Source: Desulfitibacter sp. BRH_c19
GTDB lineage: Bacteria; Bacillota; DSM-16504; Desulfitibacterales; Desulfitibacteraceae
DNA length: 64,000 nt
Direction: 5' to 3'
NCBI GenBank assembly: GCA_001515945.1
Contig: LOER01000026.1
Coordinates: 186,001 to 250,000 of the forward strand
Below are positions 628-53,419 of the stretch, piece by piece. The stretch's first letter is position 1. Each line of letters begins with the position of its first letter. The position numbers were made by a program, and so were the translations under genes. The notes beneath the pieces are model-generated. The model searched no databases. It had not been told where the DNA came from and worked only from the letters and a program-made list of their open reading frames with translations.

Positions 628-1464
628 CTAGGATAACTCTAGACTAATGTCAAGGGCTTTTACTGAATGGGTGAGGTCGCCAACAGAGATTATATTTACT
701 CCTGTTGCTGCAATTTCCTTAATACTATCCAGAGTTATTCCTCCAGAAGCTTCTATTATTGCTTGATCCTTTACTAGCTCTACAGCTTTAACCATCATTT
801 CTGGAGACATATTGTCCAGCATGATAATGTCTACTTTATTGTCGAGAGCTTCTTGAACCATCTTAAGATCTTCCGTTTCTACCTCGATTTTAATGGTAAA
901 TGGAAGCTTTTCTTTTAAAATGCTAATTGCTTTTGTGATGCTGCCTGCTGCTTTTAAGTGGTTATCCTTAAGCATTACTGCATCATAAAGCCCGAAGCGA
1001 TGATTGCTTCCGCCACCGACTCTTACTGCATATTTATCTAATATTCTCAAACCAGGGGCAGTTTTTCTTGTATCAACGATTCTTACCGGATAACCTTTAA
1101 CCTTTTTAACATAGCTATGGGTTTTAGTTGCTATACCAGAAAGACGTTGTAAAAAGTTTAATGCTACTCGTTCACCTGTTAAGATAGCTGGTAGTGAACC
1201 AGAGATGTAGACTAGTTTCATTCCATTCTGTACCTTGTCTCCATCCTTTACTATTTCTTCCCATGCTATATTTGGGGAAAGGGTCTTAAAAACAGTCTCA
1301 GCTACTGTAAGTCCCGCAATAATTCCGTCATCCTTTGCCAAGAAATAACCCTTGGCCTGAATATCATGCGAAAATAAATTATCAGTAGTAAGATCACCAT
1401 GTCCAATATCCTCTACAAGCGCCTGGGTAACTAATTTTTGTAATTGAGATAGGTTTATTTCCAT
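628..1464 (-). CDS. nadC: Nicotinate-nucleotide pyrophosphorylase (quinolinate phosphoribosyltransferase)
   Basis: NadC condenses quinolinate with phosphoribosyl pyrophosphate to give nicotinate mononucleotide, CO2 and pyrophosphate, the third step of de novo NAD synthesis in the cytoplasm. At 278 aa the length is normal. Visible family motifs are EDIGHGDLTT (about 18-27), ERVALNFLQRLSGIAT (98-113), DTRKTAPGLR (131-140, phosphate and quinolinate binding), GGGSNHR (150-156), MLKDNH (164-169) and EASGGI near 241. The ATG at 1464 has AGGAGG upstream. It is the last gene of the nadA-nadB-nadC run, 17 bases after nadB, so it is very probably cotranscribed and under the same NiaR control. Nothing looks broken. 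Confidence 0.96.
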   Translation of the reverse strand: MEINLSQLQKLVTQALVEDIGHGDLTTDNLFSHDIQAKGYFLAKDDGIIAGLTVAETVFKTLSPNIAWEEIVKDGDKVQNGMKLVYISGSLPAILTGERVALNFLQRLSGIATKTHSYVKKVKGYPVRIVDTRKTAPGLRILDKYAVRVGGGSNHRFGLYDAVMLKDNHLKAAGSITKAISILKEKLPFTIKIEVETEDLKMVQEALDNKVDIIMLDNMSPEMMVKAVELVKDQAIIEASGGITLDSIKEIAATGVNIISVGDLTHSVKALDISLELS

Positions 1465-1481
1465 TTAAAAAGATACCTCCT

Positions 1482-3026
1482 CTATGAAGATTTGTCCTTA
1501 GGTAAAGAATTGGTTCTGTAGTGTGCACCACAGCTAATATTTCTTGCCATTGCAGCTTGAGTAACCATATATGATACAATTACTTTATTTTGAAACTCAA
1601 TGCCTTCTTTAGACTGTAAATCATGGTCAAGAAAGGGAAAAACCATCTGTAATAAATTTAGATGCTTCTTTAAATCCTGAGCATCTCGAATTATACCTAC
1701 ATTTTCCTGCATGGATTGTTTTAAAAGCTTGTCATACTCCTGCGAATCTAGTTTTTTTGTTTTTTGTTTGGTATAGTTCAGAGATTCTATATTGCTCTTA
1801 TCATAAGATGTATCCTCAAGGGAGGCTGCTTTAGCTGTTCTGTAACCGAAAACAAGACCCTCTAACAACGAATTGCTAGCAAGTCTATTTGCACCGTGTA
1901 CTCCAGTACATGCCACTTCACCACATGCATATAGTCCACTAATATTTGTTCTTCCCCATGTATCAGTTTTTACACCTCCCATTAGGTAATGTGCACCAGG
2001 TGTAACGGGTATCATGTCTGAACTGGGGTCTATCCCAAGACTAGTGCATGTGTTATAAATAGTGGGAAAACGACTTTTGAAAAAGTTTTTTGCAAATCCT
2101 GTTGCGTCCAAATAGACCTGTGAAGATGATTCCAGCATTTGAGTAAATATAGCCCTGGTAACAATATCTCTAGGAGCTAAATCTGCTAGGGGATGAAATT
2201 TAGGCATGAACCTTTCACCATTATGATTGCGAAGCACAGCACCTTCACCACGAACTGCTTCAGAAATAAGAAAGCCACGCAACTTTTCACTATTTAACAT
2301 AGTTGGGTGAAACTGAACAAACTCCATGTCAGCAACCCTAGCCCCTATTCTTACTGACATTGCTATGCCATCACCTGTAACTCCTGGTGCATTTGTAGTT
2401 TTTTCATATAATTGACCTATTCCACCGGTTGCTAGAATAACAGCTCTTGCATAGATTACATTAGGCTGGTGCTCCTGTGTGAGAACAAGTACCCCTAAAC
2501 ATTTATTTGCCTGGGAGATTAAATCCACAGCCATAGTATTTTTTAATATTTCCACATTAGCTTTATTCTGTAGTTGTTCTGATAAAACTTTACATACGAC
2601 CTTTCCTGTTGCATCCCCCCCTGCATGAAGGATACGAGGTATTCCGTGAGCACCTTCTTGAGTGAGAGATATTTTTTTGCTACTTCTATCAAAGGGAACT
2701 CCCATTTTTAACAAATTTTGTATATGAACAGGTCCTTCTTCCACAAGTGTTTTAACTGCTTTTATATCACAAAGGCCTGCTCCAGCACTAAGAGTATCCT
2801 TTAGATGCAGAGTTGGGCTATCTTTTTCGTCAATCGCAGCAGCAATACCTCCTTGGGCATATATGGAATTTCCTGCAGGAAAATTATCCTTGGAGATTAG
2901 TAAAACCCGCCCGTGCTCAGATAGGTGCAGGGCAGAATACATTCCAGCTATTCCAGTACCAATAATAATGAAATCAAAACAAAGGTGTGTTTTACAATCA
3001 AAGTTGATTAAATATCTAGGAAACAA
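1482..3026 (-). CDS. nadB: L-aspartate oxidase
   Basis: NadB oxidises L-aspartate to iminoaspartate with FAD; in anaerobes fumarate can serve as electron acceptor. NadA consumes the unstable product. The ~514-aa protein begins MFPRYLINFD, has the FAD dinucleotide motif GTGIAGMYSA near residue 21, and further family motifs YAQGGIAAA, HAGGDATGKV, QFHPTML, APRDIVTRAI and GEVACTGVHGANRLASNSLL. The frame is open back to a GTG at 3035, but that codon overlaps the ribosome site AGGAG (3035-3039). The TTG at 3026 lies 8 bases from it and gives the usual N-terminus, so I chose it. The gene sits between nadA and nadC. The C-terminal arginine-rich end (MARNISCGAHYRTNS) is complete. Confidence 0.95.
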   Translation of the reverse strand: MFPRYLINFDCKTHLCFDFIIIGTGIAGMYSALHLSEHGRVLLISKDNFPAGNSIYAQGGIAAAIDEKDSPTLHLKDTLSAGAGLCDIKAVKTLVEEGPVHIQNLLKMGVPFDRSSKKISLTQEGAHGIPRILHAGGDATGKVVCKVLSEQLQNKANVEILKNTMAVDLISQANKCLGVLVLTQEHQPNVIYARAVILATGGIGQLYEKTTNAPGVTGDGIAMSVRIGARVADMEFVQFHPTMLNSEKLRGFLISEAVRGEGAVLRNHNGERFMPKFHPLADLAPRDIVTRAIFTQMLESSSQVYLDATGFAKNFFKSRFPTIYNTCTSLGIDPSSDMIPVTPGAHYLMGGVKTDTWGRTNISGLYACGEVACTGVHGANRLASNSLLEGLVFGYRTAKAASLEDTSYDKSNIESLNYTKQKTKKLDSQEYDKLLKQSMQENVGIIRDAQDLKKHLNLLQMVFPFLDHDLQSKEGIEFQNKVIVSYMVTQAAMARNISCGAHYRTNSLPKDKSS

Positions 3027-3082
3027 ATAAACCACTCCTATTTAGATGCTTTTACTATTTACGTTAGGGAGGTGAGTCTTTT

Positions 3083-4003
3083 TTAGTTATGACCTGATGC
3101 AATTGTAAGCATCTTTTCAAGAGTCCCACATGCAGCCTTTCTAATGGAATTATCTACTTTTATCTGTGGTTCCAAGGTTTCTAGAGCATCCTTTATTTTT
3201 GGAAGGGTGGTCATCTTCATATTTGGACAGATAAGCCCCTGTGACAATAAATAAAACTGCTTATCAGGATTTTCCTTTTTTAAGCGATAAAGCATTCCCA
3301 TTTCAGTTCCTATAATAAATTTTTTTGCCTTAGATTCCTTGGAAAAACGCAAAATTTCCGAAGTGCTGCCAACATGATCTGCAAGTGCTACTACTTCTGG
3401 TTGGCATTCTGGATGAACGACAATGATTCCATCAGGATGATGCAGGCGAACCTTTCTTACATCATCTACAGTTACTCTATGGTGAGTAATACAATACCCA
3501 TCCCATGGGATTATTTCCTTCTCGGTTTTTAAGGCAACATAGCTAGCCAAATTCCTGTCGGGAACAAAGAGTACCTGTTTTTGTTCTAGTGAATTTACAA
3601 TTTTGACAGCATTTGAAGAAGTACAGCAAATATCACTTTCAGCTTTTACTTCAGCTGACGAATTGACATAACACACAACAGCGGCTTCTGGATATTCTTT
3701 CTTCTTTTCAAGCAAGGTTTTAGAAGTGATAGTATCCGCCAATGGACATCCGGCATTCTTTTCAGGCAGCAATACAATCTTATCTGGGGACAATATGGCG
3801 GCACTTTCAGCCATAAATTGAACACCACAAAAAACAATAACCTCTGCATCTGTTGATGCAGCAAGCTTACTTAAGCCAAAGGAATCCCCAGTATAGTCAG
3901 CAATCTCTTGAACCTCGTCTATCTGATAGTTATGGGCCAGGATTATAGCGTTGCGTTGCTTTTTCAAATTTTTTATCTCTGCAATAGTATCAATTAAATT
4001 CAT
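3083..4003 (-). CDS. nadA: Quinolinate synthase A
   Basis: NadA condenses iminoaspartate from NadB with dihydroxyacetone phosphate to give quinolinate, using an oxygen-sensitive [4Fe-4S] cluster. The 306-aa length is normal. Recognisable segments are AIILAHNYQ near residue 20, [57 protein letters not shown] and [10 protein letters not shown] near the C-terminus. The three cluster cysteines are expected in CGVQF, within CCTSSNA or nearby, and in AACGT. It is the first gene of the minus-strand nad run, with a promoter and a candidate NiaR operator just upstream (4044-4103). The ATG at 4003 has a GGAG site about 11 bases upstream. Confidence 0.96.
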
Positions 4004-4043
4004 TAATCAGTAATCTCCTCTCTTATATGTGCTAACATGCATA

Positions 4044-4068
4044 GACAGATGTCTTGTCAGGTGCTGTC
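4044..4068 (-). promoter_or_regulatory. Candidate NiaR operator upstream of nadA
   Basis: The 25-base stretch has the outer inverted pair GACAG (4044-4048) and CTGTC (4064-4068), with further TGTC and GTCAG half-sites between. It lies directly downstream of the predicted -10 of the nad promoter, where a bound repressor would block transcription. The niaR gene is the next gene upstream. NiaR is known to repress nad genes in Firmicutes when niacin is present; assigning this exact site is inference. Confidence 0.55.
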
Positions 4069-4074
4069 AAAAAA

Positions 4075-4103
4075 ATTTTAACCTATACAGCAATCCCCGT
4101 CAA
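4075..4103 (-). promoter_or_regulatory. Sigma-A-type promoter of nadABC
   Basis: Read on the minus strand there is TTGACG (4103-4098), a 17-base spacer, and TAAAAT (4080-4075). The nadA ATG is about 70 bases downstream, and the candidate operator begins immediately after the -10 box. Confidence 0.55.
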
Positions 4104-4141
4104 TTATAACTATTACTTTTATCATGCACTTATTTTAAGGG

Positions 4142-4282
4142 TTCCACCTCTTGCTCTGCACTGGTATTTCTACGCATTGCAAAAATCACAATGCTAGAAC
4201 TACTGGCGTAGGTGGGATGTTCTAATCAGGTGGAGTAGAGTCTCCATCTGATTCCCGATGTTTCAGTATAGCTGAAACGAGT
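4142..4282. repeat. Palindromic repeat, families A and B joined (modules 1, 2 and 3)
   Basis: Module 1 (4142-4217) is bounded by TTCCACCT and AGGTGGGA and contains one copy of the hairpin unit seen twice at 341-473. Module 2 (about 4225-4252) is a hairpin with arms TCAGGTGGAG and CTCCATCTGA. Module 3 (about 4258-4286) has GTTTCAG and CTGAAAC arms followed by GAGTTCACT. Modules 2 and 3 occur in inverted orientation at 26207-26270, and module 3 alone at 11975-12006. The element ends at the niaR stop codon and may serve as its terminator. Confidence 0.75.
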
Positions 4283-4801
4283 TCACTGTTTTAGTAACAA
4301 GCCTGCTTTGTCTAGCTCCCTTTCAATATGGATAAAAACCTCTTCACTAGAAGCTTCAACAGTATGAAGATGTATTCCGTGGGTTAAAGCAGAAAGGGGT
4401 TTAGAATTAGAATTTTTGATATTATTAATAAATATTGAAATACCTCTGCGGGAGCTAAGCATAAGTATTCCCCTTAGTTCTCCATATACAGGATGCTCAA
4501 CAATAACATCTAAAACCTTGCCTCCGGCATCTACCATTATTTCAAGTTCCTGAGGCATTTCTTCTGAAGTATGGCAGGTAGCAAAGGTTTTTCTATAAGG
4601 GGTAGAGGTTAATGCTTGCATTAAAAGGTAGCCTTGGGGTGTAGCTAATATTTGTTCACCACTAGCCCTTAATATGGAAATGTCTTGAACTATAATCTGC
4701 CGACTGACGTATAGCCTGGTTGCAAGCTCAGAACCTGCAATTGGTTGGTCAGTTGTTTTTAGAATGGCCAAAATATTTTCTCTGCGGTTGATAGGATTCA
4801 T
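4283..4801 (-). CDS. niaR: NAD biosynthesis transcriptional repressor NiaR (HTH + 3H domain)
   Basis: This 172-aa protein has an N-terminal winged HTH_11-type domain (about residues 5-60, with LATRLYVSRQIIVQDISILR as the recognition region). A C-terminal 3H domain follows, named for three conserved histidines, seen here in CHTSEEMP, VIVEHPVYGEL and LTHGIHLHTVEA. Family members (B. subtilis YrxA, T. maritima TM1602) bind nicotinic acid and a metal and repress nad or niacin-transport genes. Its place next to nadABC, in the same direction, fits. The gap to nadA holds a palindromic repeat and a separate nad promoter, so niaR is probably transcribed independently. The ATG at 4801 is preceded by AAGGAG. 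Confidence 0.9.
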   Translation of the reverse strand: MNPINRRENILAILKTTDQPIAGSELATRLYVSRQIIVQDISILRASGEQILATPQGYLLMQALTSTPYRKTFATCHTSEEMPQELEIMVDAGGKVLDVIVEHPVYGELRGILMLSSRRGISIFINNIKNSNSKPLSALTHGIHLHTVEASSEEVFIHIERELDKAGLLLKQ

Positions 4802-4971
4802 CCAAATTATCTCCTTCCGTATTCTTAACTACTTGATACCATTTTCAGATACTATTTGAATTACATTTACAGGAAAATAGCAGTAGATTGTAGAAAGATA
4901 TTCCTTTGTAGTATATTATACACTTATCCATGATTTTTTCTATAAGCACAGTAAAAGAAGGATTGAATTAA

Positions 4972-5808
4972 ATGGTTAAATATTGTGAACTTGAAGTAAA
5001 AGACGCACTTCATAGGTTGACTAGGAGGGGATTACCCTATAAATACGATCTTAATATCTATAGAGGCTGTTCCCATGGATGCAAATATTGCTATGGTGTG
5101 AAAAGTCACTCCTATCTAAATAGTGAAAGTTTTCAGGATGAGATTTTTGTGAAGACTAATATCTCTGATAGGTTAGAGGAGACTTTAGCAAGTACAACAT
5201 GGGTAGGAGAAACCATTAACTTCGGAGGGGTTTGTGATAGTTATCAGGAAGGGGAAAGGCAATTTAAATTAATGCCGGATTTGTTACGGCTTATGATTAA
5301 GTACAAGAATCCTATAGTTATAAGTACTAAATCGGATCTGATTATGCGGGATATTGACTTAATAGCCGAGCTAGCTGAGGTCACAACCGTTAAGCTTGCA
5401 ATATGTATTACTTCAATTGACAAAGAAGTATCAAAAAGGGTGGAGCCGGGTGCATCCCTTCCGCGAGAAAGGTATATTGCACTTAAGGAGCTTAGCAAAA
5501 CAAAGGCAAGGGTAGGGCTGCATTTTTTCCCCATACTTCCATTTTTATCAGATGACGAAGAGAGTCTTGAAAAGATGGTAAAGGCAGGCGCTAATTCTGG
5601 TGCTGATTATATTATGTGCTGCATGTTGTATATGTCTGGAGGGATTAGAAAAAGATATTTGGATTTTATTCAAAAAGAATACCCTGAGTACTATGGGGGA
5701 TATCTAGGGTTATATAATAAAGGTAGTGCAAATAAGGAATATAAAGCTAAAATACATGGCTTTTTAAAAAATATGAAGAGCAAATATAGGATAGATAAAA
5801 GTTATTGA
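4972..5808 (+). CDS. Radical SAM protein, SPL-like family, function unknown
   Basis: The 278-aa protein carries CSHGCKYCY near residue 32, the CxxxCxxC motif that binds the radical-SAM [4Fe-4S] cluster. It is preceded by YDLNIYRGC, as in spore-photoproduct-lyase-like and Rv2578c-like proteins. STKSDLIMRDIDLI and LHFFPILPFLSDD are typical of the barrel of these proteins. The substrate cannot be read from sequence, and it lacks evidence for being the spore photoproduct lyase itself. The ATG at 4972 follows GAAGGA. The next gene, an EamA transporter, starts 15 bases after the stop, so the two may be cotranscribed. It is divergent from niaR, with a 170-base gap. Confidence 0.8.
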   Translation: MVKYCELEVKDALHRLTRRGLPYKYDLNIYRGCSHGCKYCYGVKSHSYLNSESFQDEIFVKTNISDRLEETLASTTWVGETINFGGVCDSYQEGERQFKLMPDLLRLMIKYKNPIVISTKSDLIMRDIDLIAELAEVTTVKLAICITSIDKEVSKRVEPGASLPRERYIALKELSKTKARVGLHFFPILPFLSDDEESLEKMVKAGANSGADYIMCCMLYMSGGIRKRYLDFIQKEYPEYYGGYLGLYNKGSANKEYKAKIHGFLKNMKSKYRIDKSY

Positions 5809-5823
5809 AGTAAGGGGATAGAC

Positions 5824-6765
5824 TTGGTGAAATTAAAATTTCTTGGGACTACAGATCCTTTGGCATATTTGTGTTATTTTATTATGTGTATTGTGTGGGG
5901 TTCTACATACTTAGCAATCAAATTAGGAATTGACGATTTACCTCCTGCATTATTTGCAGGTATTCGTTTTACTACTGTAGGCATAATTATGTTTATTTAT
6001 GCTAGACTAAAAGGTTTAAAAATGCCAGCTAACTTCCAGGACTTTAAAAGATCAGCCATAACTGGCTTGTTTTTACTTACTGGGGCAGCTGGGTTTGTGT
6101 TTTGGTCACAACAGTACATTGCTACAAGCCTGACTGCAATAATACTTGCGACTTCAGTACTGTTTACTGCTTTAATTGACAGCTTCTTGCCAGGGGGTAA
6201 TAGGGTTGGCAAGCGGGGATGGCTAGGTCTGATTTGCGGTTTTTTAGGGGTAGCTATTCTTTTTTCCCCGGAGTTAGAATTTGGTAATACTAGTTTACCC
6301 GGTCTCTTTGGGGCGCTTTCTTCCTCACTTTGCTGGGCAGTAGGGTCATTATATTCAGTACGAAGGCCACCGTCTTGCTCAACTATATCTAATATTGCTG
6401 TACAATCGTTAGCAGGAGGTGTTGCTCTATTAGTTCTTGGATTACTGGCAGGGGAGCTTGTTAGTGTTAAGATTACTCCAATAGGCATGGCAGCTTTATT
6501 ATACTTAATTATCTTTGGCTCTATAATTGCATATAGTGCCTATATTTATATATTAAAGGTTGTTCCTCCATACAAGGCTGTAACTTATACTTATATTAAT
6601 CCAATAGTTGCAATAATTCTTGGTTTCTTGGTTTTAAATGAATCTCTACACATAGAAATGGCCATTGGTGCAGTAGTAATTATAGGTGGAGTTATCTTAG
6701 TCCAGTCAGATATAATACCTGTTCATGACGATATAAATGTACAAGAGACTGATATACCAAGCTAG
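5824..6765 (+). CDS. EamA/DMT-family transporter
   Basis: This is a hydrophobic protein of about 313 aa with ten likely membrane helices arranged as two EamA repeats. YFIMCIVWGSTYLAIKLGID opens the first and GALSSSLCWAVGSLYSV the second. Family members move amino acids or other small metabolites, often as exporters; the substrate is not predictable. The start is a TTG at 5824 or the adjacent GTG at 5827; AAGGGG lies 6 and 9 bases upstream respectively, so the choice makes one residue of difference. The short charged tail (SDIIPVHDDINVQETD) is cytoplasmic or exposed. It follows the radical SAM gene closely. Confidence 0.85.
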   Translation: MVKLKFLGTTDPLAYLCYFIMCIVWGSTYLAIKLGIDDLPPALFAGIRFTTVGIIMFIYARLKGLKMPANFQDFKRSAITGLFLLTGAAGFVFWSQQYIATSLTAIILATSVLFTALIDSFLPGGNRVGKRGWLGLICGFLGVAILFSPELEFGNTSLPGLFGALSSSLCWAVGSLYSVRRPPSCSTISNIAVQSLAGGVALLVLGLLAGELVSVKITPIGMAALLYLIIFGSIIAYSAYIYILKVVPPYKAVTYTYINPIVAIILGFLVLNESLHIEMAIGAVVIIGGVILVQSDIIPVHDDINVQETDIPS

Positions 6766-48800: not shown

Positions 48801-48891
48801 TGTTATTTGTAACAAATGAGCGCATGGGAGGTGAACAGAAAATAACTTAAGATTGCAATTATTATGAAAAAAATTAAGGAGGTTGAGACCT

Positions 48892-50208
48892 ATGAGTCAG
48901 AGCACTCAAAAAAGACCTATTTTTGAAGGAGTGTTTTCAAAAGAAGATTGGTTTACGGTATGGTTAGGCGCTATTGTTATAGTTTTAGGAGCTGCAGGTG
49001 CATGGCCAAAAGTTGTCATGCCAGCAAAATGGGGAGTAGATGGACTTGGATTTTTTGCTTCTATTCCAGGCAGTTCTCTAACAGGAATTATTGTAACTGG
49101 CATCTTATGTTTAATACTTTTTGCATTTTCTATGTTCTTTACCAACAAACCATTGGTTGGAAAATTTGCAGTAGCATTTCCTATGATTTTTATAATTGCT
49201 ATTCTTGCAGAAATCTTGGGAAAATTTGCCCCATTGAGCCATTATGGATTGAATAGTGTTGTTTGGGCATTAGTTTTAGGTTTATTAATTAGTAATACCA
49301 TTAAAACCCCCGATCTATTGAAGCCTGGGGTTAAAACAGAATTGTATATTAAAACTGGTTTAGTTTTATTAGGAGCTTCTATTCTGTTTGATCGTATGTT
49401 GACATTAGGTGTCCTCGGCATAGGTGTTGCTTGGCTGGTAACTCCTGTTGTAATTATTTTCATGTATTGGTATTCTCAAAGCTATCTTAAAATGCAGGAG
49501 AATAGAGGTTTAGCGATTACTATTGCAGCCGCAACTTCCGTTTGTGGTGTATCCGCTGCAATTGCTGCTGGTACTGCAGCAAAAGCTAAAAAAGAAGAAA
49601 TATCATTAGCAATTGGTATTTCCTTAATATTCACAGTTATTATGATGGTTGCTATGCCCGCTTTAGTAGTGGCAATTGGTATGGATCCATATATAGGAGC
49701 AGCTTGGATGGGTGGTACAATTGATGCAACTGGTGCGGTTGTTGCAGCTGGAACTATGCTAGGTGACGAAGCAATGGAAATTGCCTCTGTTATTAAAATG
49801 ATTCAGAACATATTGATTGGACTTTCTGCTTTCGTTATAGCAGTATTCTGGGTAGTTAGATATGAAGGAAAATCAGTATCTGATGCTAATGTTGGGGCAT
49901 CTGAAATCTGGTTCCGTATGCCTAAGTTCATACTTGGTTTCATTGGTGCTTCAATAATTTTCTCCTTCTTCTTACCAGACGCACTTGTAAGTGATACTCT
50001 TGGTGTGGTTAATGGATATAGAAAGTTTTTCTTTACATTAGCCTTTGTGAGTATTGGACTTGAATCTAACTTTGGTGATATGGCTAAACTTGTTAAGGGT
50101 GGTAAGCCATTAAACCTATACATTGTTGGTCAAACATTTAACCTTGTTCTAACATTAATTGCAGCTTACGTATTCTTTAGTGGCAACTTCTTTGCACTAC
50201 CATTCTAA
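48892..50208 (+). CDS. YeiH/UPF0324-family putative sulfate exporter
   Basis: This ~438-aa membrane protein has about eleven helices. It matches the TIGR00698/Cons_hypoth698 family (E. coli YeiH), predicted anion or sulfate exporters, though function is not proven. Visible family segments are GLLISNTI near 137, KTGLVLLGASILFDR near 157, AAATSVCGVSAAIAAG near 209, GGTIDATGAVVAAG near 276 and FVSIGLESNFGDMAK near 386. Reading from GTG 48883 is possible, but AAGGAGG sets the ATG at 48892. It is monocistronic with a terminator at 50230. Confidence 0.88.
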   Translation: MSQSTQKRPIFEGVFSKEDWFTVWLGAIVIVLGAAGAWPKVVMPAKWGVDGLGFFASIPGSSLTGIIVTGILCLILFAFSMFFTNKPLVGKFAVAFPMIFIIAILAEILGKFAPLSHYGLNSVVWALVLGLLISNTIKTPDLLKPGVKTELYIKTGLVLLGASILFDRMLTLGVLGIGVAWLVTPVVIIFMYWYSQSYLKMQENRGLAITIAAATSVCGVSAAIAAGTAAKAKKEEISLAIGISLIFTVIMMVAMPALVVAIGMDPYIGAAWMGGTIDATGAVVAAGTMLGDEAMEIASVIKMIQNILIGLSAFVIAVFWVVRYEGKSVSDANVGASEIWFRMPKFILGFIGASIIFSFFLPDALVSDTLGVVNGYRKFFFTLAFVSIGLESNFGDMAKLVKGGKPLNLYIVGQTFNLVLTLIAAYVFFSGNFFALPF

Positions 50209-50229: not shown

Positions 50230-50260
50230 CCCTTCAGCCTTTCAAAGCTGAAGGGTTTTT
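50230..50260 (+). terminator. Terminator after the YeiH-type gene
   Basis: CCCTTCAGC (50230-50238) and GCTGAAGGG (50247-50255), a perfect nine-base stem, then TTTTT. Confidence 0.9.
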
Positions 50261-50364: not shown

Positions 50365-51690
50365 TTATCTCGCTAAAAAAGTAGGTATCAAGGCGCCCCC
50401 TCTTGAGGTTGTTATAACTTCCAAATTGGATATTCTAGTGTAAAAGCCCTTAAGTTTACCACCATATAAAAAGGGGCTTAAATTAACCTTTAGACTTTCT
50501 ACCTTGCTAGGAGAGGCAAGAAAATCTTCTGTTGGAATGGCTATTAATTCCTGAGCAATATAGTTCTTATCCAGATTATCACTAATTAACTGTTGCCACT
50601 GGCTGGTAGAATAATCTTTTCCCATATACAAACCCTGGCTACCATAGGAATTATGGGGTTTTATTATATGATTATCTTTCTCCTTTAGTACTTGGTTAAG
50701 GAGCAGTTTATTACTTGAAGTTAACCTGATGGTAAAAGGCAAATGATTTCTGATAAATGTAATCTCTTCTTTTGAGAAATACTCTTCTGCAGTAGATGAG
50801 GTAAGAAAGGTAAAGACAAGCTTACTATGAGCTGCTTCAGATCGAAAGGAACCTACCATACAAAAGGCTTTATTTTTGTATGCCTCAATAAAAGCTTGAA
50901 CTGCATCAAATCTTTCCAGTAATTCAGTAGTTACTGCCCTTCTATATATCAAGTCAATCTTAAAATCTTCCATCCATAAAGCATCCTCATGATAGGTTAA
51001 ATCTCTGGGATCAGCAATTATAGTATTATATCCTTCTGCTATGAAAACATCCCGTAAAGCTTCAAATTCTGCGATAGTTGCTTTATCCATAAAATCGACT
51101 ATTGCGATATTAGGTTTCTTAGTAGGCATCTTAGTTCCATTAAAGGATTCGTAGGACTCAACCAGAGTAGCCAATAAGCTTCTTCTTAATTCAAATTGCT
51201 CTAATGAATATGTTTCCCGCAATTCTCTGCCTACCTTAGTACTTAAAAAACATTCTTCCATAGTATTTGTTTCATTCATTCCACTAGTGCCATCTGTGTT
51301 AAACTCACAAAAATAAATACTACCCTTTGGATTATAAAAAGCATCAAAGCGGGTTATAGGTATGTTTGTATCATAGCCTGGAGTAATTCTTAATAATCCT
51401 AAAAGCTCCTTAGGAAAATCAAAAAATTCGGCAACCTTCTTATCAGTAACAAGCAGCCGAGCAGTTTTTTCAAGGATATTCCAGAGCCTTTCAGACTTAT
51501 TCTTTATCCAAACATATTCTTCATTAGTTAATACATAAGGGTGGAATATACTTCTAATTGTATTACCTTGAATCTTGGCGGAACTCTCGTCTAGTTTATT
51601 AAAATATACGCTATGACTACTTTTAAGATTTAAAGTAGATAAATCATTTAGTATCTTTTTTCTAATATCTTCTCGATAGATAATAGGCAC
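50365..51690 (-). CDS. Circularly permuted ATP-grasp protein, glutathionylspermidine-synthase-like
   Basis: This 441-aa predicted ligase forms amide bonds using ATP. The recognised signal is YFCEFNTDGTSGMNET near residue 128 (glutathionylspermidine-synthase-type ATP-grasp). Later come HIIKPHNSYGSQGLYMG near 342, YIAQELI near 377, VNLSPFLYGGKLKGFYTRIS near 405 and a terminal TSRGGALIPTF. The substrate is unknown. It starts at GTG 51690, two bases after the stop of the glutamate-cysteine-ligase-like gene, with GGGGG seven bases upstream, so the pair is one translational unit. A product of the upstream enzyme is the likely acceptor. Confidence 0.8.
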   Translation of the reverse strand: MPIIYREDIRKKILNDLSTLNLKSSHSVYFNKLDESSAKIQGNTIRSIFHPYVLTNEEYVWIKNKSERLWNILEKTARLLVTDKKVAEFFDFPKELLGLLRITPGYDTNIPITRFDAFYNPKGSIYFCEFNTDGTSGMNETNTMEECFLSTKVGRELRETYSLEQFELRRSLLATLVESYESFNGTKMPTKKPNIAIVDFMDKATIAEFEALRDVFIAEGYNTIIADPRDLTYHEDALWMEDFKIDLIYRRAVTTELLERFDAVQAFIEAYKNKAFCMVGSFRSEAAHSKLVFTFLTSSTAEEYFSKEEITFIRNHLPFTIRLTSSNKLLLNQVLKEKDNHIIKPHNSYGSQGLYMGKDYSTSQWQQLISDNLDKNYIAQELIAIPTEDFLASPSKVESLKVNLSPFLYGGKLKGFYTRISNLEVITTSRGGALIPTFLAR

Positions 51691-51692
51691 TT

Positions 51693-53042
51693 TTAATCCC
51701 CCTGAATTGTAATCATATCCTTTAGCCTAAACAAATTTCGCCCATTGTTTTCCCATGCAGCTAGCAGGATTTCAGCAGGACATGTTCCCCGCTCTATAAG
51801 CATTTCTTCGACGGGCTCAATGTTCCTAAGATCAACTTCTTCAGCAAGAATTCCCTCTTTAACCAACCCTTTTAAGCCATTTTTACCAGCTAAAAATACC
51901 TCCTGGCATAAATCCAGTAATCTGCCTTTTTCAAAGCTTGTGGCAAGTCCGGTTTTATGACAACGATAATGCAAGTCAAGGATAGTATCACCAGACCATC
52001 TAGAAAAATAATCTAGCAAGCTTCGGCGAGTATCATTATGGTAAAATAGACCTCTTATTAAAGATGGAACACTTGGAACAAGGTTTGGTAGTTGTGCATC
52101 TATAACACGCATCTCAATATATTTTTGTTTAAGCCTTGTTTCAAAGAATGCAAAAGATAGATGTGTTGCAAAGTCATCCATATAAACTTTTTCTTTTTCC
52201 ATATAATCTCTCATGGTTATTCCATTCATGGGGATAGATTTACTATCCTTCTGTAGGAGTATGATGGGCATATCCAATAATACATTCACATAGTCCATGA
52301 ACGAAAAGTCCTCTTTAAAGCTTTCCTTGACTATTCCGCATCTATCATTATCAGTATGTTCCCAGATGTGTCCCCGAAAATCTAGATAATTACTATATGT
52401 ACCCTGTTTAAATGGAGAATTTGCATAGATAGATTGGAGAATTGGTGCCAAGTAGCTGCTCAATCTAAATTTTTCACTAAAATCATTTTCATCTGCATAG
52501 TCAATATTTATTTGAACACTAGTAGAAAGCTTCATCATATGATGAGCCAGCGTTCCCTTATCTAAAAAATATTTGGACATTATATTATAACGAGTCTTTG
52601 GAAGCCATTCAATATTATCAAGAGAACTAACAGGTTGATAGCCCATGGGCAGTAAACGAATATTTTTTGGACTACAAACATAAATAAGGTTTTGATAAAA
52701 TCTGTTATACTCATCTATGCAGCTTTGTGTTCTACTCTGTGGCATGCCACTCAATTCTATTTGGCCGCCAGGTTCTAAGGTAATATTTGAAGTGCCATTC
52801 TTCAGGCCAAGCAATTTTTCATTCTCGTATACAGGTTTCCAATTATATTTATCAATGAGATCACCTAGTATTCCCTCAATCCCTTGTTTGCCTGTGTAAG
52901 GGACTGAATGTAAGGTGTCAGCATTTACAGCAAAAATCTCACATTCTAGGCCTGTTCTCCATTTATCTCTTGGGGTGGTTGATTGACTAAAATATTTTTC
53001 TAGTTGATCCAGACCTTGAACTTCTTCTCTGTTTAACATCAT
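51693..53042 (-). CDS. Glutamate-cysteine ligase family 2 (GCS2)-like enzyme
   Basis: This 449-aa protein is of the GCS2 family (plant GshA, EgtA). Those enzymes join the gamma-carboxyl of glutamate to cysteine or another amine with ATP. Key segments: KWRTGLECEIFAV near residue 26 (catalytic glutamates), LEPGGQIELSGMPQSRTQSC near 113 (the typical ITLEPGGQxELS), TSVQINIDYAD near 190, and FFETRLKQKYIEMRVIDAQLP near 310. Substrate specificity cannot be read. The ATG at 53042 follows GGAGGAG by seven bases. It is followed at once by the permuted ATP-grasp gene. Typical Gram-positive GshF is a fused protein, so this arrangement differs from known clostridial glutathione synthesis. Confidence 0.85.
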   Translation of the reverse strand: MMLNREEVQGLDQLEKYFSQSTTPRDKWRTGLECEIFAVNADTLHSVPYTGKQGIEGILGDLIDKYNWKPVYENEKLLGLKNGTSNITLEPGGQIELSGMPQSRTQSCIDEYNRFYQNLIYVCSPKNIRLLPMGYQPVSSLDNIEWLPKTRYNIMSKYFLDKGTLAHHMMKLSTSVQINIDYADENDFSEKFRLSSYLAPILQSIYANSPFKQGTYSNYLDFRGHIWEHTDNDRCGIVKESFKEDFSFMDYVNVLLDMPIILLQKDSKSIPMNGITMRDYMEKEKVYMDDFATHLSFAFFETRLKQKYIEMRVIDAQLPNLVPSVPSLIRGLFYHNDTRRSLLDYFSRWSGDTILDLHYRCHKTGLATSFEKGRLLDLCQEVFLAGKNGLKGLVKEGILAEEVDLRNIEPVEEMLIERGTCPAEILLAAWENNGRNLFRLKDMITIQGD

Positions 53043-53419
53043 TTAGGTTCTCCTCCAAATTATAACCGATTGATTTGTTATTGTACTTCTATTTAGCTCA
53101 TGGGACAGAAGACAGAATTCAGAATGCAGAAAAAACTGGCAAATCAGGATGTAGGGTTTTGGTTGTTTTGACTGGGAAATAGGCTTTCTGTCAGTAAAGT
53201 CCATTTGTTTTATTATCCTTAATAGTATCCGTTTTTAATAACATAATCAATTCCTTTAATATAGTTTTCCCAAAAACTTCATCTTTTTAGATAGAAAATT
53301 CCGTATTAATTTACCTGAAAATTTGGTATCATCAAGGTGTGTAGGCAAGGTTTTGCAAAAGAATGTTACAAAATTTCAAAAAAGATGCAAGATTTACCCA
53401 AAAGGAGTAGTAGTATATA
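53043..53419. other. Gene-free gap between the ligase pair and the sigma-factor gene
   Basis: Divergent promoters for both sides must lie here, but no convincing -35/-10 or ECF pair (GAAC...CGTC-like) was found. Bases 53101-53130 hold the low-complexity tract GGGACAGAAGACAGAATTC and AGAATGCAG. The rest is AT-rich with no clear hairpin. Confidence 0.5.

Follow-up and report, generated by a model that had tools for sequence, protein, structure and literature searches.

A plant-type glutamate-cysteine ligase and a circularly permuted ATP-grasp enzyme encoded side by side: a probable third bacterial route to glutathione in anaerobes

We found that two adjacent genes in Desulfitibacter sp. BRH_c19 probably specify glutathione synthesis by a third bacterial route, one that would have evolved independently of the others. 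The genes are in a 64,000-nucleotide stretch of contig LOER01000026.1 (positions 186,001 to 250,000; called the window here). One encodes a GCS2-family ligase (GCS) that resembles plant-type glutamate-cysteine ligase (GCL), and the other encodes a circularly permuted (CP) ATP-grasp ligase. In the route that we propose, a plant-type GCL and a CP ATP-grasp synthetase, specified by an operon or by a fused gene, would act together in hundreds of anaerobic species. We consider it very probable that the pair makes a thiol of the form gamma-Glu-Cys-X and reasonably likely that this thiol is glutathione itself, with glycine as the acceptor suggested by displacement of a GshF-type synthetase (below). 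An earlier note, made from the DNA sequence of the window alone, had proposed that the pair builds a gamma-glutamyl peptide in two steps, possibly a low-molecular-weight thiol. That proposal is now strongly supported by conservation of the pairing, by natural fusions of the two genes, and by an exchange of the first enzyme for GshA.

The GCS and CP genes are found together in many organisms. We scanned 84,980 species genomes for relatives of the CP enzyme, obtained 471, and read 80 of these loci. The loci were from Tissierella, Peptoniphilus, Alkaliphilus, Natronincola, Orenia, Natroniella, Halanaerobiales, and Lachnospiraceae, and also from metagenome-assembled genomes (MAGs) of Cloacimonadota, Lentisphaerota, Bipolaricaulota, Elusimicrobiota, and Bacteroidota. 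The route is probably a feature of Bacillota that also occurs, patchily, in MAGs of these other groups. The GCS gene was directly upstream of the CP gene and on the same strand in 86 of 97 de-duplicated loci, with a median gap of -1 bp and 79 pairs within 60 bp of each other. In three of the 97, GCS and CP were fused in a single open reading frame of ~840-870 aa, and in eight GCS was locally missing. Fusions were found at L063, L102, L116, and L035 (the last counted apart from the 97-locus set), and they occupy two well-separated places on the CP tree. In five Tissierellia loci where CP stood alone, GCS was located elsewhere in the same genome. Adjacency of GCS and CP is far beyond chance: order and strand are constant in several phyla, and there are fusions in addition. 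The pairwise distances of the two proteins are also correlated (r 0.86; the maximum in 1000 shuffles was 0.17).

Conservation does not extend past the two genes. The earlier note had called for a search of adjacent homologues and their third genes; the search recovered the pair as described, with no conserved third gene among the neighbors of 82 loci, where only lineage-specific neighbors recur. The note had also seen no peptidase, transporter, or reductase next to the pair, and our neighbor analysis bears this out in that none was consistently linked. The exception is plasmid pSRC2 of Selenomonas ruminantium (NC_017076, L136), in which GCS, a gene for a MATE efflux transporter, and the CP ATP-grasp gene form one run (1954-6296). 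It is possible that the MATE protein of this outlying member is an exporter. A more distant plasmid relative adjoins a gene for a biotin-carboxylase-like ATP-grasp protein and an MFS gene. In four Halanaerobiales loci (L009:5517-5900, L041, L050, and L067), a VOC-family (glyoxalase I-like) gene is just upstream on the opposite strand. This neighbor is consistent with thiol-dependent use of the product, though it is not co-directional with the pair. One locus (L093; JAGXRF010000025.1) is labelled Flavobacteriales, yet the genes around its CP gene, truA among them, are those typically found in Alkaliphilus-like Clostridia, and its CP protein groups in the tree with that of a Clostridiaceae MAG. 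This contig was probably mis-binned.

The pairing also holds in a sample of 398 genomes of the phylum to which the window belongs. The CP enzyme was present in 25 of these, and all 25 had GCS (p 6e-32, calculated without correction for kinship). Weak matches to the CP profile in three genomes (G091, G147, and G308; 47-72 bits) were in frames of 823-880 aa, and we excluded them as other CP ATP-grasp proteins. Ten genomes had GCS2 and no CP, and the state of these copies supports specificity of the partnership. Six of these copies were degenerate, one was truncated, one adjoined an IS element where its contig ends, and two were intact. The GCS2-like genes at L125:2830-4062, L126:4385-5638, L128:4220-5518, and L131:4718-5971 are each beside a small zapA-like gene, and the four genomes that carry them belong to one family (f52). 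Judging by replacement of most of the catalytic Glu and Arg residues, their products are apparent pseudoenzymes. Two others (L130 in G303 and L135 in G009) are likewise degenerate and are beside a lipoprotein gene. Both intact copies (L127:4202-6290 and L132:4138-6112) are plant-type GCS2 genes that overlap or adjoin a gene for an EgtC-like class II glutamine amidotransferase (66 bits, below the cut-off), and these gene pairs possibly belong to a different gamma-glutamyl pathway.

A partner exchange in Candidatus Formimonas warabiya points to the substrate of the CP enzyme. We did not find GCS2 in this genome (L084). Instead, it encodes a type-1 (E. coli-type) GshA (TIGR01434, 405 bits; cut-off 393) at a distance of 1.7 kb from CP, and the intervening genes specify an ABC ATPase and an ABC permease. 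A relative, G354, has a split GshF at the corresponding place (L134:661-5534), consisting of type-1 gshA followed by a GshF-type glutathione synthetase gene (NF002688, 481 bits; cut-off 425), the ABC pair, and a serine-acetyltransferase-like gene. The GshA proteins of the two organisms are 55% identical and the ABC permeases 63% identical. The synthetase found in G354 is missing from Formimonas, where the best match, and the only strong one, is a 916-aa frame with 34% identity and the length of a cyanophycin synthetase. The Formimonas CP protein is nested within the GCS2-paired clade of the CP tree. That is, a CP enzyme from the GCS2-paired family is now beside an unrelated GshA, in the position that a glutathione synthetase occupies in a relative. 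The exchange points to gamma-Glu-Cys as the substrate of the CP enzyme, and it suggests that the product is glutathione. Together with the pairing, the independent fusions, and the lack of GshB and GshF in the same genomes, it strongly supports the view that the CP enzyme acts genetically as a glutathione synthetase.

The first enzyme groups, by sequence, with plant-type GCL and not with EgtA or YbdK. It belongs to the GCS2 family (PF04107, 147.8 bits; cut-off 21), and its best NCBIfam model is TIGR01436, the plant-type GCL (316.9 bits, E 1.6e-94). The score is below the equivalog cut-off of 463 bits, so TIGR01436 is its nearest model rather than a family of which it is an equivalog member. 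Scores to the EgtA model TIGR03444 (110 bits; cut-off 371) and to the YbdK model (31 bits, under its equivalog cut-off) were lower. Structures of plant GCL (9ufc, 6gmo, and 2gwc) matched residues 13-427 with E values of 1e-67 to 1e-68 (phmmer against the PDB), and all 19 positions that are invariant in a 63-member family alignment are retained in the window protein. The earlier note had left the choice between a GshA-like and an EgtA-like enzyme, and the model scores narrow this to plant-type GCL. Based on homology and on the replacement of GCS by a curated GshA in Formimonas, the enzyme is predicted to form gamma-Glu-Cys.

The second enzyme is a CP ATP-grasp protein with the fold of a glutathione synthetase. 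It matched PF14403 (CP_ATPgrasp_2) with 41.2 bits (cut-off 32) and PF04174 (CP_ATPgrasp_1) with 25.8 bits. The score to PF03738, the GspS model, was 22.8 bits and below the cut-off of 29.3. The N-terminal amidase domain of glutathionylspermidine synthetase/amidase was not found in the 441-aa protein, nor was any other Pfam domain. PF02955 (GshB) was matched neither by the protein when it was scanned with Pfam nor anywhere in the genome, and no eukaryotic glutathione synthetase family was among the Pfam or NCBIfam matches. A profile of the CP family reached only distant solved structures (Cp1B, YgiC, trypanothione synthetase, 3n6x, and GspS). An AlphaFold model made with 85 relatives in the alignment had a pLDDT of 95.4 and a pTM of 0.94. 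Its top Foldseek match was 3n6x, a putative GspS (3e-20), and the second was the human glutathione synthetase structure 2hgs (E 5e-18, TM 0.68). Two plant enzymes were next, the homoglutathione synthetase of soybean and the glutathione synthetase of potato, then E. coli GspS (2io8; 4e-16) and Cp1B. Similarity to the eukaryotic synthetases is in the fold (TM 0.6-0.7) but only 12-15% of residues are identical. The earlier note had called the second enzyme GspS-like. This is correct for the fold, but the GspS Pfam score is below cut-off and, among solved structures, eukaryotic glutathione synthetases are at least as close as GspS. As far as sequence comparison goes, the enzyme is unrelated to both bacterial synthetase types that we searched for, GshB and GshF. 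We tried GshB, GshF, EgtA, YbdK, and GspS as identities for the pair, and rejected them because the models failed or scored below cut-off. One scan of viral contigs found no relative, and a viral structure library gave no meaningful match.

We compared the predicted active site of the CP enzyme to that of eukaryotic glutathione synthetases, for which the residues that bind gamma-Glu-Cys, Mg, ATP, and the carboxylate of glycine have been described (PMC2845819). Correspondence with the human enzyme was assigned by spacing and not by superposition of structures. Among 85 CP members, R114, D116, E129, N131, D133, G134, D199, Y249, R250, R251, H288, K290, K344, and R419 are invariant. By spacing, human R125, S151, E214, K305, K364, and R450 match CP residues R114, S136, D199, K290, K344, and R419, and the human S-loop motif YxR (R267) matches Y249-x-R251. 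Human D127, E144, and N146, in what we take to be the correct numbering, would match D116, E129, and N131. S136 is conserved in 83 of the 85 members, and the other matched positions are invariant. Several of these residues are probably common to all CP ATP-grasp enzymes. The predicted acceptor loop (A-loop, residues 427-434) varies across the CP family; position 431, for example, is E in 33, G in 27, and D in 8 of the 85, and the loop has no conserved acidic residue. The modeled fold and the mostly conserved substrate positions support the prediction of a synthetase that uses gamma-Glu-Cys.

Based on these results we propose a pathway of two steps. In the first, which homology and genetics indicate, GCS would form gamma-Glu-Cys by ATP-dependent linkage of cysteine to glutamate through the gamma-carboxylate of the latter. 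In the second, which genetics and structure suggest, the CP enzyme would convert the cysteine carboxylate of this dipeptide to an acyl phosphate and then couple it to an amine. The amine is most probably glycine, and the product would then be glutathione. The CP enzyme would be the counterpart, though not an ortholog, of GshB and of the synthetase domain of GshF. Its head-to-tail fusion with its partner, in several lineages, parallels the fusion that arose independently in GshF. The product may serve as a thiol buffer and as a cofactor for glutaredoxin, glyoxalase, and similar enzymes in anaerobes without the classical thiol genes that we tested for.

Several observations weigh against a glutathione synthetase, or against extending it to the window. 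The displacement argument comes from one genome, in which the CP gene and the gshA-ABC genes run toward each other. In addition, the Formimonas CP is from the main branch of the tree, whereas the window CP belongs to a divergent one (length 1.13; 5 of 100 sequences) and has a few fixed differences, among them an N at position 347 where other members have D. The CP enzyme has Gly134 in place of the Ser (human S149) that makes contact with the cysteine amide in eukaryotic enzymes. R419 corresponds to Arg450, which binds glycine, but it is probably general to CP ATP-grasps and is no proof of glycine. Canonical GshB and type-1 GshA/GshF were absent from all 25 CP-containing genomes of the sample, and this is expected anyway because both are rare (a convincing GshB in 1 and type-1 GshA/GshF in 11 of the 398 genomes; p = 1.0). 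We therefore dropped mutual exclusion of CP and GshB/GshF as evidence (Fisher p 1.0). Glutaredoxin domains scoring at least 60 bits were only weakly enriched, in 12 of 25 genomes with CP and 4 of 28 without (p 0.015, again without kinship correction), and the enrichment is only suggestive. Some glutaredoxin-domain frames contain one in-frame TGA and are probably selenocysteine glutaredoxins. These are in the Desulfitibacter genome (G000, C36:128895-129071), in G002, G003, G042, G196, and G381, and in some genomes without CP.

The third residue might be something other than glycine, giving a homoglutathione-like thiol such as gamma-Glu-Cys-beta-Ala or gamma-Glu-Cys-Ser. The choice of acceptor could vary because the loop at 427-434 varies, and the branch that includes the window CP is divergent. 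In addition, the closest solved eukaryotic enzymes include one that takes beta-alanine, soybean homoglutathione synthetase, with a score as good as that of glutathione synthetase. We think this unlikely, since the CP enzyme of Formimonas takes the place of a GshF-type synthetase, an enzyme known to accept glycine, and no gene for biosynthesis of beta-alanine or another such compound is linked to the pair. It is also conceivable, given that the CP ATP-grasp fold covers GspS, trypanothione synthetase, and the YgiC/Cp1B acid-amine ligases, some of which use amines, that the enzyme adds a polyamine, ethanolamine, or ammonia to gamma-Glu-Cys and so makes a thiol like glutathionylspermidine or glutathione amide. 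Lack of the amidase domain, the GspS score (22.8 against 29.3), an acceptor loop without a conserved acidic residue, and the absence of linked polyamine genes make this quite improbable. Glutathionylspermidine would additionally require a glutathione synthetase, and none was found.

Two further explanations concern what the peptide is for and whether it is a thiol. There is a slim chance that the pair makes a secondary metabolite or signal rather than a redox thiol. Other CP ATP-grasps function in pathways for peptide-like natural products (Cp1B, 9cjn, which we take to be the ligase of the E-64 pathway), and both plasmid loci described above have genes suggestive of such a role: MATE between the ligases in Selenomonas, and ATP-grasp and MFS genes beside the distant relative. 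Such a role fits poorly with the lack of a conserved exporter or third gene, with deep and broad conservation of just two co-diverging genes, and with exchange of GCS for a GshA that passes the curated GCL model. Finally, GCS might use an amine other than cysteine, as do EgtA-like and YbdK-like enzymes, and the product of the pair would then not be a thiol. The GCS2 superfamily is functionally mixed, and the window protein, with 317 bits, falls short of the 463 that TIGR01436 requires. Against this, TIGR01436 is the best model by far (EgtA, 110 bits; YbdK, 31 bits), plant GCL structures align over the full length, and type-1 GshA stands in for GCS in Formimonas, and we regard a non-thiol product as very improbable.

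In the window, the two genes have the arrangement that the earlier note described: they are in the same direction, 2 bp apart, on the minus strand (Table 1), with the motifs TLEPGGQIELS in the first and EFNTDGTSGMNE in the second. GCS is transcribed first and CP second. The TAA stop codon of GCS (51695-51693) is followed by the 2-bp gap (51691-51692) and the GTG start codon of CP at 51690. A divergent sigma-factor gene is upstream of the pair and a convergent PF03601 transporter gene is downstream. The pair is a self-contained two-gene unit, because it has good ribosome-binding sites of its own, a downstream terminator, and divergent and convergent neighbors. The terminator is bidirectional and also serves the convergent gene (48883-50208), which encodes a YeiH-type (PF03601) membrane protein. 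A sister species (L007) has two tandem, longer YeiH-type copies at the same place (1440-3173 and 4082-5851).

Table 1. Features of the GCS-CP locus (positions in the window)
Feature	Position	Strand	Basis
GCS2-family ligase gene, plant-type GCL-like, 449 aa	51693..53042	-	PF04107, PDB plant GCL matches, invariant positions
CP ATP-grasp ligase gene, 441 aa	50365..51690	-	PF14403, PF04174, AlphaFold, Foldseek
Ribosome-binding site GGAGGA, 8 nt 5' of the GCS ATG at 53042	53051..53056	-	sequence inspection
Ribosome-binding site GGGGGA of the CP gene, within the 3' end of the GCS gene	51697..51702	-	sequence inspection
Intrinsic terminator, 11-bp stem and T tail, ~110 bp 3' of the CP gene	50230..50255	-	terminator scan and sequence

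In openly licensed literature we found no description of the pair, of a CP glutathione synthetase, of C. acetobutylicum CAC1539/1540, or of glutathione in these taxa, and subscription journals could hold one. Because coverage of the literature is incomplete, novelty here means not found by us rather than proven. A survey that used E. coli and cyanobacterial gshA and gshB reported glutathione pathways in Cyanobacteria, Proteobacteria, one actinobacterium, and Eukarya, and not in Firmicutes (PMC6282198). If our interpretation is correct, then many anaerobes deemed to be without synthesis of low-molecular-weight thiols make glutathione or a new gamma-Glu-Cys-X thiol. This would be an antioxidant thiol in organisms usually thought not to have glutathione, overlooked by surveys for known genes, and the pair would be a direct genetic marker for it in hundreds of species, including Peptoniphilus, Tissierella, Halanaerobiales, and Alkaliphilus. 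Clostridium (Alkaliphilus) oremlandii has a glutaredoxin-dependent selenoprotein MsrA (PMC4479559). The thiol would be a plausible electron donor for this enzyme, though we did not check for the pair in that species. Producers of glutathione could also find uses for a second type of synthetase and for a natural fusion that is new.

The pair shares features with several known systems. As in GshF (NF002688/TIGR01435), the GshA-type ligase comes first and the second ligase is either fused to it or encoded next to it, and both systems serve bacteria beyond the classical glutathione groups; the split GshF of G354 is the direct positional counterpart of the pair. In contrast to the pair, GshF has a type-1 GshA rather than a plant-type GCS2, and a canonical ATP-grasp (of the D-Ala-D-Ala-ligase/cyanophycin type) rather than a circularly permuted one. 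The L063 fusion scored with TIGR01436 and EgtA and with no GshF model. The first enzyme is homologous over its full length to plant and proteobacterial GCL (TIGR01436; 2gwc, 6gmo, 9ufc) and keeps the active-site motifs, though identity is about one-third, the score is below the equivalog cut-off, and it is linked to a CP ATP-grasp in place of GshB or a eukaryotic glutathione synthetase. The CP enzyme has the circularly permuted ATP-grasp fold of eukaryotic glutathione synthetases (2hgs, 3kal, 5oes, 1m0w) and spacing-matched RxD, ExN...S, YxR, and terminal Arg residues; it differs in having no detectable sequence homology to them, a bacterial and anaerobic distribution, and Gly for S149. By profile and fold it is nearest to GspS, YgiC, trypanothione synthetase, Cp1B, and CP_ATPgrasp_1/2, with which it shares RxD and ExNxD. 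Unlike that group, it has a near-obligate GCL partner and no amidase domain. GshB (PF02955) catalyzes the reaction predicted for the CP enzyme with a different, non-permuted ATP-grasp. The best-supported interpretation is that the pair works like GshF and like GshA with GshB, yet with a second enzyme from outside those families.

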